A DNA stretch of 64,000 bases, from contig NZ_KB905141.1 of the NCBI RefSeq assembly GCF_000378225.1, positions 1,193,326-1,257,325 of the forward strand, in the 5' to 3' direction. The stretch is from Methylophilus methylotrophus DSM 46235 = ATCC 53528 (GTDB lineage: Bacteria; Pseudomonadota; Gammaproteobacteria; Burkholderiales; Methylophilaceae). Shown here one piece after another: positions 29,103 through 33,911 of this stretch. Below the pieces are notes generated by a model. That model searched no databases and was not told the origin of the DNA. It was given only the letters and a program-made list of their open reading frames with translations. Position 1 is the stretch's first letter; every line of letters starts with the position of its first letter. Both the position numbers and the translations under genes were made by a program.

Positions 29103-30170
29103 TTAGCTTGACGCAATGTCTACGTCGTCTGCATGCTTGTTTTGCAAGGCTACCCAATGTGAAACAAGCGTCAAGCCCACCGCCAATAAAGTTGGTCCCA
29201 GAAAAATTCCAATAAAGCCAAACGCAAGCGCGCCACCCAGTACCCCCAGTACAACCAACAGCATGGGCAAATGTGAAGAATGGCTAATAAGGATAGGCTT
29301 GATGACGTTATCCACACTACTGATCACCAGCAAGCCATAAAACCCTAAAAATATCGCCCAGCCTGGTTCGCCATGGCTAAACAGCCATAGCGCAGCCCCG
29401 CCCCAAACCAAAGGCGGTCCCACCGTGACGACTGACAGAAAAAAGGTCGCCATAGCCAACAGCAAAGGCATCGGTGCCCCCGCAAACCAAAAACCAAAGA
29501 GAGCCACAGTGGTTTGTGCTAATGCGGTCCCAAATATACCCAGCATCACACCCTTGGCTGTCATGCAAGACAATTGCAGCATTTCCTCACCCAAGGCACC
29601 TCCCAGCCGCCTGACCATCACCTTGACAGCGTGGGCCATGCGAGCACCATCGCGATAAAAAAAGAAAGCAATGAACACAGCGAGTAACAATTGCATAAAA
29701 CCGCTCATCACCAACTGTACTGCACGCAACAAATAACTGCGCAAGGGCACGGCATATTGATGCGTCATCCGCATCAAGGCTTCATTGCTTACTAATGCAC
29801 TTTGCCATGCGTCAGCAAGCTGCGTCCCTATCACAGGGATGCGCACCACCCAAGGGGGCGCGTGTGACGGCAGGCTCTGCAGGAGGAGCCGCGCCTCATT
29901 CAGTAAGAGCGTGGCTGAATCGGTCAGATGCACGGCAAGATAGGCCATCGGCAGAATCAACGCAAGCAGCAGGAATAAGGTCATTATCACAGCGGCCAAG
30001 GCATCACGCTTGCCCAATTGCAACCAGATACGGTGATATAGCGGCCAGCTAAACATGCAGAGTACCGCTGCAAATAACATAGCAGCCATAAAAGCATGCA
30101 AAACAAATACACAGCCGATGATCAGCAGGGTAATCAGGGCAATACGCGCAATCTGGTTGGTATTAATCAT
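29103..30170 (-). CDS. AI-2E family transporter (PerM/YdiK type)
   Basis: Inner membrane protein of 355 residues with about eight hydrophobic segments. The middle of the protein carries a large soluble insert and the C-terminal half the usual PILISHSSHLPMLLVVLGVLGGALAFGFIGIFLGP pattern, here seen as PILIS followed by glycine-rich helices. Family members include an autoinducer-2 exporter and Na+/H+ antiporters; the substrate here is not known. It stands alone, divergent from the sigma factor operon and convergent with the DUF1841 gene. Confidence 0.87.
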   Translation of the reverse strand: MINTNQIARIALITLLIIGCVFVLHAFMAAMLFAAVLCMFSWPLYHRIWLQLGKRDALAAVIMTLFLLLALILPMAYLAVHLTDSATLLLNEARLLLQSLPSHAPPWVVRIPVIGTQLADAWQSALVSNEALMRMTHQYAVPLRSYLLRAVQLVMSGFMQLLLAVFIAFFFYRDGARMAHAVKVMVRRLGGALGEEMLQLSCMTAKGVMLGIFGTALAQTTVALFGFWFAGAPMPLLLAMATFFLSVVTVGPPLVWGGAALWLFSHGEPGWAIFLGFYGLLVISSVDNVIKPILISHSSHLPMLLVVLGVLGGALAFGFIGIFLGPTLLAVGLTLVSHWVALQNKHADDVDIASS

Positions 30171-30384: not shown

Positions 30385-30413
30385 GAGCGGTAAACTGTGC
30401 TTCAATAGCCAGC

Positions 30414-30956
30414 ATGAAATCTAACCCGCATGACTGGCTGAAAGAACATGGCGATTATCTTTACCGTTTTGCACTGGCGCGCTTGCGTGACGTGCATCAG
30501 GCCGAGGACGCAGTGCAGGAGACACTGCTCGCTGCAATCAAAAATCCAAACTTTGCCAAACAATCCAGCCCACGCACCTGGCTAACAGGCATTCTCAAAC
30601 ACAAAATCATCGATTGCATGCGCAAACAGATACGGGAAACACCCGTTTCTGAATTGCTCAGTGAGCAAGATGCCAATATGGATGATTTTTTTGATGACAC
30701 CGGGCATTGGGCGGAAAAACCGCAAGCCTGGGATGTGCCGCATGATGCGCTGCAGCAAACCCAGTTTCTTAAAGTGTTACAGCGATGCATGGAACGTCTA
30801 CCACAGAAACTGGCGGCCATTTTCACCATGCGCGATGTCGACGAGATGGATAATGATGAAATATGTAAGGAACTCGGCATCACCGCGACCAATGCATGGG
30901 TCATGTTATACCGCGCCCGTATGGGGTTACGCAAGTGCCTGGAGTTGCACTGGTAA
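30414..30956 (+). CDS. ECF-type RNA polymerase sigma factor
   Basis: Group 4 sigma factor of 180 residues. Region 2 (about 10-75) includes LYRFALARLRDVHQAEDAVQE and SPRTWLTGILKHKIIDCMRK. An acidic linker (DANMDDFFDDTG) leads to region 4 (about 125-178) with LPQKLAAIFTMRDVDEMDNDEICKELGI followed by a helix-turn-helix ending in MLYRARMGLRKCLE. It directly precedes a zinc-finger anti-sigma gene (27 bases) and the RiPP-like genes, so it most likely drives this operon under metal or thiol stress. That role is inferred from the neighbours. Confidence 0.92.
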   Translation: MKSNPHDWLKEHGDYLYRFALARLRDVHQAEDAVQETLLAAIKNPNFAKQSSPRTWLTGILKHKIIDCMRKQIRETPVSELLSEQDANMDDFFDDTGHWAEKPQAWDVPHDALQQTQFLKVLQRCMERLPQKLAAIFTMRDVDEMDNDEICKELGITATNAWVMLYRARMGLRKCLELHW

Positions 30957-30983
30957 ATTGTCTATGGTGAAACGGAAGAAGAG

Positions 30984-31232
30984 ATGCTGAATTGCAAACA
31001 AACCAGCCTGCTGGTCTCGCAATCACTTGACCGCCCGCTGACCTGGCGTGAGCGTTTGGCTGTCAGGGGACACCTGCTGATTTGTGTGTATTGCCGACGC
31101 TTCACGCAGCAACTCAAATTGATTCGTCGCTACATGCAAGGCTGGCAGCAACAAGTGACCGAAAGCAGCGACATTGCATTGTCTTTGGCGGCAAGGGAAC
31201 GTATTGCGCAGCAACTGGACAAATTTTACTGA
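30984..31232 (+). CDS. Zinc-finger anti-sigma factor
   Basis: The 82-residue protein has the ZAS signature: Cys4, then His30-x3-Cys34-x2-Cys37 (HLLICVYC). This matches zinc-binding anti-sigma factors such as RsrA and ChrR, which hold an ECF sigma factor until zinc is lost or the thiols oxidise. No membrane helix is present, so it should act in the cytoplasm. The C-terminal helix (LSLAARERIAQQLDKFY) completes it. It follows the sigma gene by 27 bases. Confidence 0.85.
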   Translation: MLNCKQTSLLVSQSLDRPLTWRERLAVRGHLLICVYCRRFTQQLKLIRRYMQGWQQQVTESSDIALSLAARERIAQQLDKFY

Positions 31233-31264
31233 TGTTTGTTTAACCCTGTTAAAAAGGAACCCTC

Positions 31265-31594
31265 ATGACTACCCATAAAATGGCTGCAATTACCGGTGCT
31301 GTTGCTTTGTCTATGGCCGCCGCCTCTGTCCATGCAGAAAATCCGTTTGAAGTAAAAACACTCGCCCAGGGCTATCAGGTGGCAGATGCCTCCGACAGCA
31401 AAACCAAAGAAGGTAAATGTAGTAGTGGCAAATGCGGTTCCAATATGAAGCATGGCAACACAAGCGGCAAAACCAAAGAAGGCGCCTGTCATCACGATAA
31501 AGCCAAGGAAGGTGCCTGCTCTGCCGAGAAGATGAAAGAAGGCAGCTGTTCGGCAGAAAAAATGAAAGAAGGCGCCTGCCACGCCAGCAAATAA
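31265..31594 (+). CDS. Secreted Cys-rich repeat protein, probable RiPP precursor of the bufferin/HvfA type
   Basis: The 109-residue product has a Sec-type signal peptide cleaved near residue 24 (after SVHA). The mature part carries six cysteines. EGxC motifs occur at residues 49-52 (EGKC), 72-75, 82-85, 92-95 and 102-105; another cysteine is in GKCG at 55-58. Residues 71-109 form four copies of a ten-residue unit KEGxCxxxKx. The next two genes encode a DUF692/MNIO enzyme and its DUF2063 partner, which in known systems convert cysteines of such precursors into oxazolone/thioamide or thiooxazole groups that bind copper. I infer a metal-binding modified peptide exported to the periplasm. AAAAAGGAAC lies upstream of the ATG. 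Confidence 0.82.
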   Translation: MTTHKMAAITGAVALSMAAASVHAENPFEVKTLAQGYQVADASDSKTKEGKCSSGKCGSNMKHGNTSGKTKEGACHHDKAKEGACSAEKMKEGSCSAEKMKEGACHASK

Positions 31595-31609
31595 ACAAGA
31601 CAGATACCC

Positions 31610-32488
31610 TTGGCACAACGGTCTGATATTCGTGGAGCTGGGCTGGGGCTAAAGCGCGAGCTGCTGCCCCAGCTCATGGAGCAACAAGGGAAACCTTGGC
31701 TGTCGCAGCTGCATTTCCTCGAAATTGCGCCGGAGAACTGGATAGCGGCGGGCGGCAAATATGCGGCCGAGCTGGACTGGTTAAAGCAACATTATCCTAT
31801 CGTATGTCATGGTTTATGCCTATCATTGGGCGGGCCTGATCCGCTTAACATCCCTTTTTTGCAGCAGGTCCATCGATTTCTGAACGAATTCGAGATCCCC
31901 CTCTACACCGAACACCTAAGCTATTGCAGTGATTTATCTAATGGCTACATTTACGACTTGCTGCCCATTCCATTTACGGAAGAAGCCATTAAATATGTGG
32001 CTCAACGCATCCGGCAGACTCAAGATATCTTGCAGCGGCGCATTGCTGTGGAAAACACGTCCTTTTATGTGGACGCGCCCATCTCCGAGATGGACGAAAT
32101 AGATTTTATCAATGCCGTGCTGACGGAAGCTGATTGTGACTTACACCTGGATATCAATAATGTGTACGTGAATAGCGTCAACTTTGGTTTTGATCCATAT
32201 GCTTTCTTGGACAAGATACCGGTTGATCGTGTGGTTTACGGCCATATGGCCGGGCATTTGCAGGTATCGCCCGGCCTGCTGGTAGATACTCATGGCGAAG
32301 CGATTGCTGACCCGGTGTGGCAATTACTCAAATATGCTTATGACAGGTTGGGAGGCTTTCCTACGGTGCTGGAACGCGACAGCAATTTCCCGCCATTAGC
32401 GGACCTGATGCAGGAAGTGGATCATATTGTTTCTCTGCAGCATCACGCAGAGGCTACGCATCAGTCATTGATGGATAAGATCGCATGA
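31610..32488 (+). CDS. DUF692 multinuclear iron enzyme (MNIO; BufB/HvfB-like)
   Basis: TIM-barrel enzyme of 292 residues, member of the MNIO family that also includes MbnB. Conserved pieces with likely iron ligands are EIAPENW, CHGLCLSLGG, YTEHLSY, VENTSFY, LDINNVYVN, HMAGHLQ, DTHGEAI and LERDSNFP. It is expected to modify cysteines of the precursor encoded 15 bases upstream. The frame opens with TTG at 31610; an in-frame stop (the precursor's own TAA at 31592-31594) excludes an upstream ATG, and the next ATG would remove the conserved N-terminus. The DUF2063 gene overlaps its end by four bases. Confidence 0.9.
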   Translation: MAQRSDIRGAGLGLKRELLPQLMEQQGKPWLSQLHFLEIAPENWIAAGGKYAAELDWLKQHYPIVCHGLCLSLGGPDPLNIPFLQQVHRFLNEFEIPLYTEHLSYCSDLSNGYIYDLLPIPFTEEAIKYVAQRIRQTQDILQRRIAVENTSFYVDAPISEMDEIDFINAVLTEADCDLHLDINNVYVNSVNFGFDPYAFLDKIPVDRVVYGHMAGHLQVSPGLLVDTHGEAIADPVWQLLKYAYDRLGGFPTVLERDSNFPPLADLMQEVDHIVSLQHHAEATHQSLMDKIA

Positions 32489-33270
32489 TGCCCGCTGCAT
32501 TTCAAACCTACCAGGCTGCCTTTACAGCACACTTACGTCAGCCGGTCATTCACGCCAAACCTGCTGGCGTAGACAGCAAACGTATAAGCATCTATCGTGA
32601 AATCGTCTTTAATAACTTTGTTGCCAGTGTCAGCACCTGTTTCCCGGTATTGCTGAGCATCCTGGGTAAACGTCGTTTTGGCAAACTGGTGAGGCAGTGT
32701 TTCTCCTCACAGCAATTCAAAAGCCCCCTGTTTCAGGATATTGCAGGCAGTTTTGTCGATTTTTTACAATCATTAAAATCACCAGAGATACCAGACTATA
32801 CCGCGCAACTTGCCCATTATGAGTGGATAGAGTTGGTGCTGAGTCGGCAAATAGAGACGAAAGCTGCGGCATTGCCTGCGGCACTTATCGCAGAAGCCGG
32901 TGCACTTTTGCACTGTGAAGTGGAATTGCCAGCCGTACATCAGCTGTTACAGTATGATTTCGCTGTTCATCAACTCTCCAGAAAGCGGCGAGCAATCTCC
33001 CCTGTAGCGACCTATTTACTGGTCTACCGTGACCCAGACTTCCGGATTCGGTTTATACAACTCAATGCGGTCACCTTCCAGTTACTGCAGCAATTGCAAA
33101 CACACACCAAGACATCCGAGGCACATTTGCAAGACCTGGCCCAAAGCCTGCCCCATTTAGATCCGGAATCCGTTATCAGATTTGGTCTGCAAACGCTCTA
33201 TACGCTTTATCAACAGCAGGCTCTCAGGACAGATGGCAGAGTAGCAACTTCCAATCAGCAATCCTTTTAA
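32485..33270 (+). CDS. DUF2063 partner protein of the MNIO enzyme (BufC/HvfC-like)
   Basis: The 261-residue protein begins with the N-terminal domain known as HvfC/BufC putative DNA-binding or precursor-recognition domain, here FQTYQAAFTAHLRQP, ISIYREIVFNNFVASVSTCFPVL and FVDFLQSL. The C-terminal half is less conserved, as in other members. Such proteins pair with DUF692 enzymes and are thought to present the precursor peptide. The start codon overlaps the MNIO stop (ATGA), indicating translational coupling. A DoxX-type BufD membrane protein, present in some related operons, is absent. Confidence 0.88.
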   Translation: MMPAAFQTYQAAFTAHLRQPVIHAKPAGVDSKRISIYREIVFNNFVASVSTCFPVLLSILGKRRFGKLVRQCFSSQQFKSPLFQDIAGSFVDFLQSLKSPEIPDYTAQLAHYEWIELVLSRQIETKAAALPAALIAEAGALLHCEVELPAVHQLLQYDFAVHQLSRKRRAISPVATYLLVYRDPDFRIRFIQLNAVTFQLLQQLQTHTKTSEAHLQDLAQSLPHLDPESVIRFGLQTLYTLYQQQALRTDGRVATSNQQSF

Positions 33271-33443: not shown

Positions 33444-33911
33444 ATGCAAAACTCACTCGCCAAAGATGCTTTAAAACAATTCAGGATTATTTTCGGTACG
33501 GTCAGGCAACATTTTAGGGAAATTGAAGCTTCTTGCGGCATCTCAGGTTCTCAGCTTTGGTTGTTACATGAAATTTATACACATCCAGACCTCGGTGTTT
33601 CGCGCCTGGCTGACAACCTTGCCATCCACCAATCCACTTGCAGTTTGCTGGTAGAGAAGCTGGTGAAAAAACAGCTGGTAAAAAAACAGCGCCTAGCAGA
33701 AGACCAGCGCAAAGTCGGTTTGATAGTGACACCAGCCGGTCAGGCCTTATTAGCCAATGCGCCACAGCCACTGGACGGTATTCTGCCGCAGGTATTGGCC
33801 ACGCTAGATGTAGAAGCGCTACAAAGTTTAAATGCCTCTCTCAAGATGGTGATTAGTAAATTGGATACACAATCCAATACGCTCGCAAATCACCCGTTGG
33901 CAGAGATGTAA
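33444..33911 (+). CDS. MarR-family transcriptional regulator
   Basis: Winged-helix repressor-like protein of 155 residues. The recognition region reads GVSRLADNLAIHQSTCSLLVEKLVKKQLV, followed by a wing with AEDQRKVGLIVTPAGQALL. This is typical of MarR proteins, which respond to phenolics, oxidants or metals. It follows the MNIO operon after a 173-base AT-rich gap that should contain its promoter. Its target is unknown; the sigma/MNIO operon is a nearby candidate. A terminator follows at 33932-33959. Confidence 0.88.
   Translation: MQNSLAKDALKQFRIIFGTVRQHFREIEASCGISGSQLWLLHEIYTHPDLGVSRLADNLAIHQSTCSLLVEKLVKKQLVKKQRLAEDQRKVGLIVTPAGQALLANAPQPLDGILPQVLATLDVEALQSLNASLKMVISKLDTQSNTLANHPLAEM

Follow-up and report, generated by a model that had tools for sequence, protein, structure and literature searches.

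A probable captophorin-type five-gene operon of Methylophilus methylotrophus in which precursor and oxidative enzyme appear to have changed together

Gene content of the locus

The stretch of DNA analysed here (the window, 64,000 nt) comes from Methylophilus methylotrophus DSM 46235 = ATCC 53528 (assembly GCF_000378225.1, contig NZ_KB905141.1, positions 1,193,326-1,257,325; genome size 2.86 Mb). At 30414-33270 of the window, five plus-strand genes encode an extracytoplasmic function (ECF) sigma factor, a zinc-type anti-sigma factor, a signal-bearing precursor of a ribosomally synthesized and post-translationally modified peptide (RiPP), a multinuclear non-heme iron-dependent oxidative (MNIO) enzyme of the HvfB family and its partner protein of the HvfC family (Table 1). 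Operons of this kind are known; the unusual part is that Ser or His follows most Cys of the precursor, together with a matching difference in the presumed gate residue of the enzyme. The nearest named relatives among the matches listed are Methylophilus strains, with 80, 80, 79 and 73 percent identity in the MNIO enzyme.

The first four genes are separated by gaps of 27, 32 and 15 bp and the last two overlap, which suggests that all five are co-transcribed. Families were assigned with Pfam and NCBIfam profiles at their curated cut-offs. The MNIO enzyme scores 386.5 bits with the HvfB model NF003818 (cut-off 360), and the partner scores 223.8 bits with the HvfC model NF050145 (cut-off 142) and also passes PF09836 and PF22106. 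An earlier note, made from the DNA letters alone, had read a sigma factor, a zinc-binding anti-sigma (ZAS) factor, a secreted EGxC precursor, a DUF692 enzyme and an overlapping DUF2063 protein here, in one direction and with short gaps; the coordinates were confirmed, and profiles and motifs agree with each assignment, the signal of the precursor being judged by eye. It was also right that no BufD-type DoxX gene follows: the next gene 3′ of the operon, at 33444, encodes a MarR regulator, and the four DoxX matches of the genome lie on contigs 3 and 7. On the 5′ side, an AI-2E-type transporter gene (29103-30170, minus strand) stands between a DUF1841 gene and the sigma gene; in many relatives, whose upstream sequences were read by eye, DUF1841 appears directly before the sigma gene and may share its transcript.

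Table 1. Genes and sites of the operon, in window coordinates
Feature	Position	Strand	Basis or remark
ECF sigma factor, 180 aa	30414..30956	+	NCBIfam TIGR02943 over cut-off; Sigma70_r2 and r4_2
Zinc-type anti-sigma factor, 82 aa, C4/H30/C34/C37	30984..31232	+	zf-HC2, antisigmaE and NF052368 over cut-off; residue positions as in MseR
RiPP precursor, 109 aa; a signal-like N-terminal part (~1-24, judged by eye) is followed by ENPFEVKTLAQGYQVADA and the Cys-rich core	31265..31594	+	
Precursor core: EGKCS, SGKCG, EGACH, EGACS, EGSCS, EGACH	31409..31591	+	Last four Cys exactly ten apart
MNIO enzyme (HvfB family), 292 aa, TTG start	31610..32488	+	MbnB_TglH_ChrH, HvfB; closest solved relative 3BWW, E 3.5e-77
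Codons of D257 (presumed equivalent of the proposed catalytic Asp) and S258 (presumed equivalent of FonB Phe250)	32378..32383	+	3BWW alignment; match to FonB numbering presumed
MNIO partner (DUF2063 and NGO1945_C; HvfC family), 261 aa	32485..33270	+	Pfam/NCBIfam over cut-off; 4-bp overlap with MNIO gene

The precursor peptide

Repeated Cys in an E-G-x-C context follow the signal-like N-terminus and the leader of the precursor. As the earlier note had described, there are five EGxC motifs, and Cys 75, 85, 95 and 105 lie exactly ten residues apart. A sixth core Cys, C57 in SGKCG, is absent from that note and is the only site of this precursor with Gly after Cys; with six core sites of such differing context, the several equal metal sites that had been proposed are not borne out. 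The leader motif, sought with the regular expression NPF..GY, is found in each of the 12 precursors from the window's group, which comprises 12 of the 19 loci of the same genus (two of them near-identical), in 67 of 69 other precursors of the family Methylophilaceae and in 69 of 81 precursors from outside it.

It is the residue after Cys that sets this precursor apart: mostly Ser or His, versus Gly in most relatives and almost without exception Gly outside the family. In the window's group, 38 of 77 such residues are Ser, 24 His, 13 Gly and 2 Ala, and a SGKCG, SGQCG or AGKCG site is kept in 12 of 12 precursors. Of the other seven loci of the genus, three have only Gly after Cys and the rest have mixed residues. 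The earlier note had held the precursor to be different from described ones on account of its ten-residue repeat. That it differs stands, by Ser/His after Cys with a matching difference in the enzyme; the repeat as a novelty was rejected, since at least three Cys at exact ten-residue spacing, present in 12 of 12 precursors of the group, also occur in 9 of the 69 other family precursors and in 7 of the 81 outside.

Position 258 of the MNIO enzyme

In FonB, the MNIO enzyme of the fontiphorin system, Phe250 lies beside the proposed catalytic Asp249 and contacts Lys3 and Gly5 of the substrate repeat in a model (PMC13097082). The alignment places LERDFNFPP of 3BWW against LERDSNFPP of the window enzyme, and Asp249-Phe250 of FonB presumably correspond to D257-S258. 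At this gate position the window's group has Ser, in one case Thr, instead of Phe, and Phe occurs in only one of 82 distinct family loci. Position 258 was chosen after the contact residue of FonB was known from the literature, and a ranking of all alignment columns was made afterwards as a control. A search for a diagnostic enzyme residue fixed within each group was abandoned: its strict filter gave only positions 60, 114, 232 and 247, and missed 258 because the residue there varies.

Asp at the gate position has been reported for the Buf2-like type (PMC13097082), and the Buf2-like MNIO of the M. methylotrophus genome reads EWDD at the equivalent stretch. This second MNIO of the genome (L069; contig 3, ~179.6-182 kb) is a 549-aa protein that combines a BufB-family MNIO region (374.6 bits, cut-off 310) with a DUF2063 region; Asp follows its presumed catalytic Asp, and its neighbours are a DoxX gene and the gene of a precursor that resembles BufA2, contains Cys-Lys motifs and scores 30 bits, below the cut-off (60). 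In the family, one locus (L059) combines Met at the gate position with a precursor that has DGSCC motifs, that is, two adjacent Cys.

Association of the gate with the residue after Cys

The locus set comprised 191 loci with an MNIO gene: 83 from the family, two at the level of the order (L061, L062), 20 of the 25 in one list of relatives (L077-L096) and 86 from another list, drawn mainly from near its top; L063-L076 and L097 were not included. Removing 29 loci in which no precursor was found (2 in the family, 27 outside), three duplicates and L096, whose MNIO was read in two pieces and has no letter at position 258, gave the 158 loci analysed. Cys located before the leader motif were not counted. 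Before this rule was applied, Gly followed Cys in 496 of 508 cases in the Phe group, and five of its precursors had some residue besides Gly and Ala there; in four of these (L227, L235, L236, L247) the extra Cys lies in an upstream extension.

Enzyme position 258 and the residue after Cys are associated. With Phe enzymes, Gly follows Cys in 479 of 482 cases, and 67 of the 70 loci have only Gly, two an Ala and one an Asp. With non-Phe enzymes, the 507 residues after Cys comprise 276 Gly, 160 Ser, 35 His and others; among these 88 loci, 56 show one or more residues besides Gly and Ala, and 6 combine Gly with Ala. When the 292 enzyme columns are ranked by mutual information, position 258 comes first, both over the 158 loci (0.57; next 0.42) and over the 80 loci within the family (0.44; next 0.43).

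The association was also followed on a tree of 161 rows including duplicates, built with column 258 left out (short search, LG+G4). It shows six gate changes: Phe is lost five times and regained once, in L056, a locus with an all-Gly substrate. When branches bearing a gate change were counted as non-Phe, parsimony placed one loss of the Gly/Ala state on 30.7 units of Phe branch length and nine on 8.05 units of non-Phe branch length (binomial p 6e-6). The all-Gly state was lost three times in 30.3 Phe units and nine times in 5.6 non-Phe units (p 8e-6). Peptide and enzyme appear to have changed together, at the spot presumed to decide which Cys are modified.

The sigma/anti-sigma pair and regulation

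The second protein of the operon is a predicted ZAS-type anti-sigma factor. The ligand pattern C-x(25)-H-x3-C-x2-C is present, with all four positions exactly as the earlier note had read them, and the profiles zf-HC2 (30.3 bits, cut-off 22.2) and antisigmaE (76.3 bits, cut-off 50) match. In Neisseria meningitidis, the operon NMB2140-2145 is reported to be autoregulated and to include sigma-E and its anti-sigma factor MseR (PMC2893595; also PMC3240639), whose function depends on Cys4, Cys34 and Cys37 but not on His30 (PMC2893595). In Haemophilus influenzae, RpoE2 controls a DoxX/DUF2063 operon (PMC7907618).

Alignment of upstream regions gave no firm sigma promoter. A promoter-like pattern before the operon, itself unproven, has one match in the genome, the operon itself, and its reversed control also has one. 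The scan for sigma-70 promoters and terminators stayed at chance level, and the neighbourhood of the SelR match of the genome (1800 bases read) yielded nothing firm on a regulon. A separate observation is the sequence RTGNTTSAAT (window 30397-30406), which lies shortly 5′ of the conserved start of the sigma gene in 29 of the 62 family loci, out of 83, in which that start was located; shuffling predicts 0.1 loci, a figure to be read with the relatedness of the sequences in mind. These sites lack an obvious Shine-Dalgarno sequence and are perhaps the -10 element of a nearly leaderless mRNA.

Proposed reading and its alternatives

Taken together, the locus is probably a captophorin operon (oxazolin-type, HvfABC) that regulates itself and encodes an enzyme whose specificity gate has changed so as to admit Ser or His after Cys. 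By analogy with the described systems, the zinc-type anti-sigma would hold the ECF sigma until envelope, thiol or metal stress frees it and transcription of the operon rises. The MNIO-partner complex would then bind the precursor through its signal and leader and oxidise core Cys, most likely to 5-thiooxazoles with the loss of 4 H per site; the peptide would be exported to the periplasm and may bind copper or a similar soft metal there. The changed gate (Ser/Thr for Phe) would most likely let the enzyme process sites that are mostly rejected by the described EGKCG enzyme. Going further, we suggest tentatively that the Methylophilaceae may have lost the gate residue of the MNIO enzyme early, that their precursors may then have moved from C-Gly to C-Ser, C-His, C-Asn and others, and that the window's group may make a distinct captophorin with thiooxazoles next to His or Ser and a different metal site.

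A number of results weigh against the reading as a captophorin operon with a changed gate. The HvfA model NF050188 matches the precursor weakly and below its cut-off (E 1.1e-4, 22.8 bits, cut-off 95), and the KCGExKCG domain model NF050137 gives no match to it at E up to 0.1; eight relatives scored 17.5 to 85.2 bits with NF050188, none of them passing, and five of the eight passed NF050137. On the enzyme side, FonB with Phe250 changed to Ala or Asp is still active and mostly behaves similarly, and FonBC, with its Phe, once modified one Cys of a Cys-Tyr substrate, LVHCY (PMC13097082). In our loci, one Phe enzyme (L180) has a Cys followed by Asp, and 26 of the 88 non-Phe enzymes have all-Gly substrates, three of them Ser enzymes of the same genus (L052-L054); therefore the change of the gate would permit other residues rather than dictate them. 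As for regulation, no ECF-type promoter was identified by upstream-region alignment and pattern search, and expression of the Neisseria operon was unchanged by H2O2, diamide and singlet oxygen (PMC2893595). The proposal of the earlier note that the anti-sigma senses zinc loss or oxidation is not established, the Neisseria homologue with the same ligands having ignored these agents, whereas expression of rpoE2 in H. influenzae is raised by HOCl and H2O2 (PMC7907618).

The statistics themselves leave room for a different cause. A single loss of Phe, basal to a clade that holds 81 of the 161 rows, accounts for most non-Phe rows, and therefore a family-wide cause other than the gate is possible; gate-differing pairs number six in all and only two on well-supported branches, which is below significance; outside the family (78 loci, only three of them with relaxed substrates) position 258 ranks 22nd of 292; and within the family its lead is thin, the runners-up being the terminal positions A2 and Q285. 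On these grounds the association could reflect shared ancestry alone, with a gate that has no control over the site, yet we regard this as rather unlikely. Position 258 also ranks first, if by that thin margin, within a family in which Phe is almost absent. Four of the five clades that lost Phe have residues other than Gly after Cys: the family, two with Ser (L219, L201) and one with Ala only, a residue that FonBC accepts as well (PMC13097082). Moreover, other workers had selected this residue of FonB on the basis of a model and mutated it (PMC13097082).

It is also unlikely that modification is confined to the Lys-Cys sites (EGKCS and SGKCG), or to SGKCG alone, with the four C-terminal Cys in EG[A/S]C[S/H] remaining free thiols that bind metal with the neighbouring His or Ser. 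Double variants tested with FonBC were accepted with only Ala in place of Gly at residue 5 (PMC13097082), the SGKCG-like site is kept throughout the group, and what precedes Cys at the four C-terminal sites is Ala (three) or Ser (one), not Lys. However, FonBC tolerates Ala before Cys (PMC13097082), the exact spacing of at least three Cys is kept in every precursor of the group, and the enzyme differs where the substrate differs. Unlikely too, finally, is an operon devoted mainly to redox protection or repair rather than to metal binding, on the model of the sigma-E regulon of Neisseria and the RpoE2 regulon of Haemophilus, both of which contain msrAB; the peptide would then serve as a thiol or HOCl scavenger. 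The ECF/zinc anti-sigma pair is similar to the msrAB-controlling systems of these bacteria (PMC7907618, PMC3240639, PMC2893595), but the one SelR-type (MsrB) match of the genome lies far off (contig 1, 417744-418082; no search for MsrA was made) and the unproven promoter-like pattern before the operon has no second genomic copy.

Distribution and significance

All five genes were found together at 68 of 82 distinct Methylophilaceae loci versus 2 of 106 distinct loci outside, and the arrangement is not due to chance, because it recurs across the family. No sigma gene was detected at 12 of the 83 family loci, but five of the 12 cover no more than 3.5-4.0 kb of sequence, and therefore 68 of 82 may be an undercount; outside the family, sigma and anti-sigma genes were sought by similarity to the window proteins and by the ZAS pattern, and therefore distant pairs may be missed. 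An MNIO of this kind (E up to 1e-80) is present in 83 of the 150 family genomes searched. Two loci show interrupted genes, the sigma gene of L055 and the MNIO gene of L096 each being in two pieces, as decayed copies or through sequencing errors.

About half of the reference genomes of Pseudomonadota carry MNIO-partner clusters (PMC13097082), and the rules by which MNIO enzymes choose the Cys to oxidise are only starting to be worked out. The Methylophilaceae offer a naturally varied set of enzyme/substrate pairs and one named residue with a clear prediction; if the changed-gate reading is true, the family is a natural series for how these enzymes select Cys. Among the literature matches listed, no paper joined Methylophil* to MNIO, bufferin, DUF692 or oxazolin. 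In addition, the ECF/zinc anti-sigma arrangement known from Neisseria is a common trait in this family of environmental bacteria, and harmless strains of it lend themselves to work on the signal.

Comparison with known systems

The bufferins (Buf1/Buf2) share a secreted Cys-rich precursor, an MNIO enzyme and a DUF2063 partner with the present operon, and Buf1 clusters can carry sigma/NrsF genes (PMC12452194); bufferins differ by another precursor family and another type of anti-sigma. For the EGKCG type, sigma genes go unmentioned in the parts of that source consulted here (PMC12452194). Fontiphorin of Fontimonas thermophila (FonABC, captophorins) has an EGxC-repeat precursor, which loses 4 H per repeat (PMC13097082), and the same pair of MNIO and DUF2063 partner; FonB, however, has Phe250 and a strong preference for Gly or Ala after Cys, whereas the window has Ser258 and Ser/His.

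As the earlier note had suggested, MNIO and partner genes beside a secreted EGxC precursor are of the HvfABC (oxazolin/captophorin) type, here joined to an ECF/zinc anti-sigma pair. With oxazolin HvfABC of Haemophilus influenzae the operon shares the HvfB and HvfC families, over their cut-offs, and a signal-bearing EGxC precursor, and HvfBC prefers full-length HvfA including the signal as its substrate (PMC13419390, preprint). In contrast, the operon of Haemophilus is under RpoE2, which is encoded in another gene region, and has a DoxX gene, and the window precursor stays far below the HvfA cut-off.

The operon is also like the sigma-E operon of Neisseria meningitidis and N. gonorrhoeae (NMB2140-2145; NGO1948-1943; product gonophorin). 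The gonococcal operon is reported to comprise periplasmic protein, DUF692, DUF2063, ECF and DoxX genes (PMC2954202). ECF sigma, Cys4/His30/Cys34/Cys37 anti-sigma, periplasmic protein (here the signal-bearing precursor), DUF692 enzyme and DUF2063 partner are likewise all together in the window, whereas the DoxX gene of the Neisseria operon is missing from it, and the Neisseria operon has its sigma pair at the downstream end and an EGKCG-type product. Since these Neisseria and HvfABC precedents have been described, the operon belongs to a known arrangement; 5-thiooxazoles are present in the gonococcal product as well as in oxazolin of H. influenzae, and copper is generally bound by products of this sort (PMC13097082).

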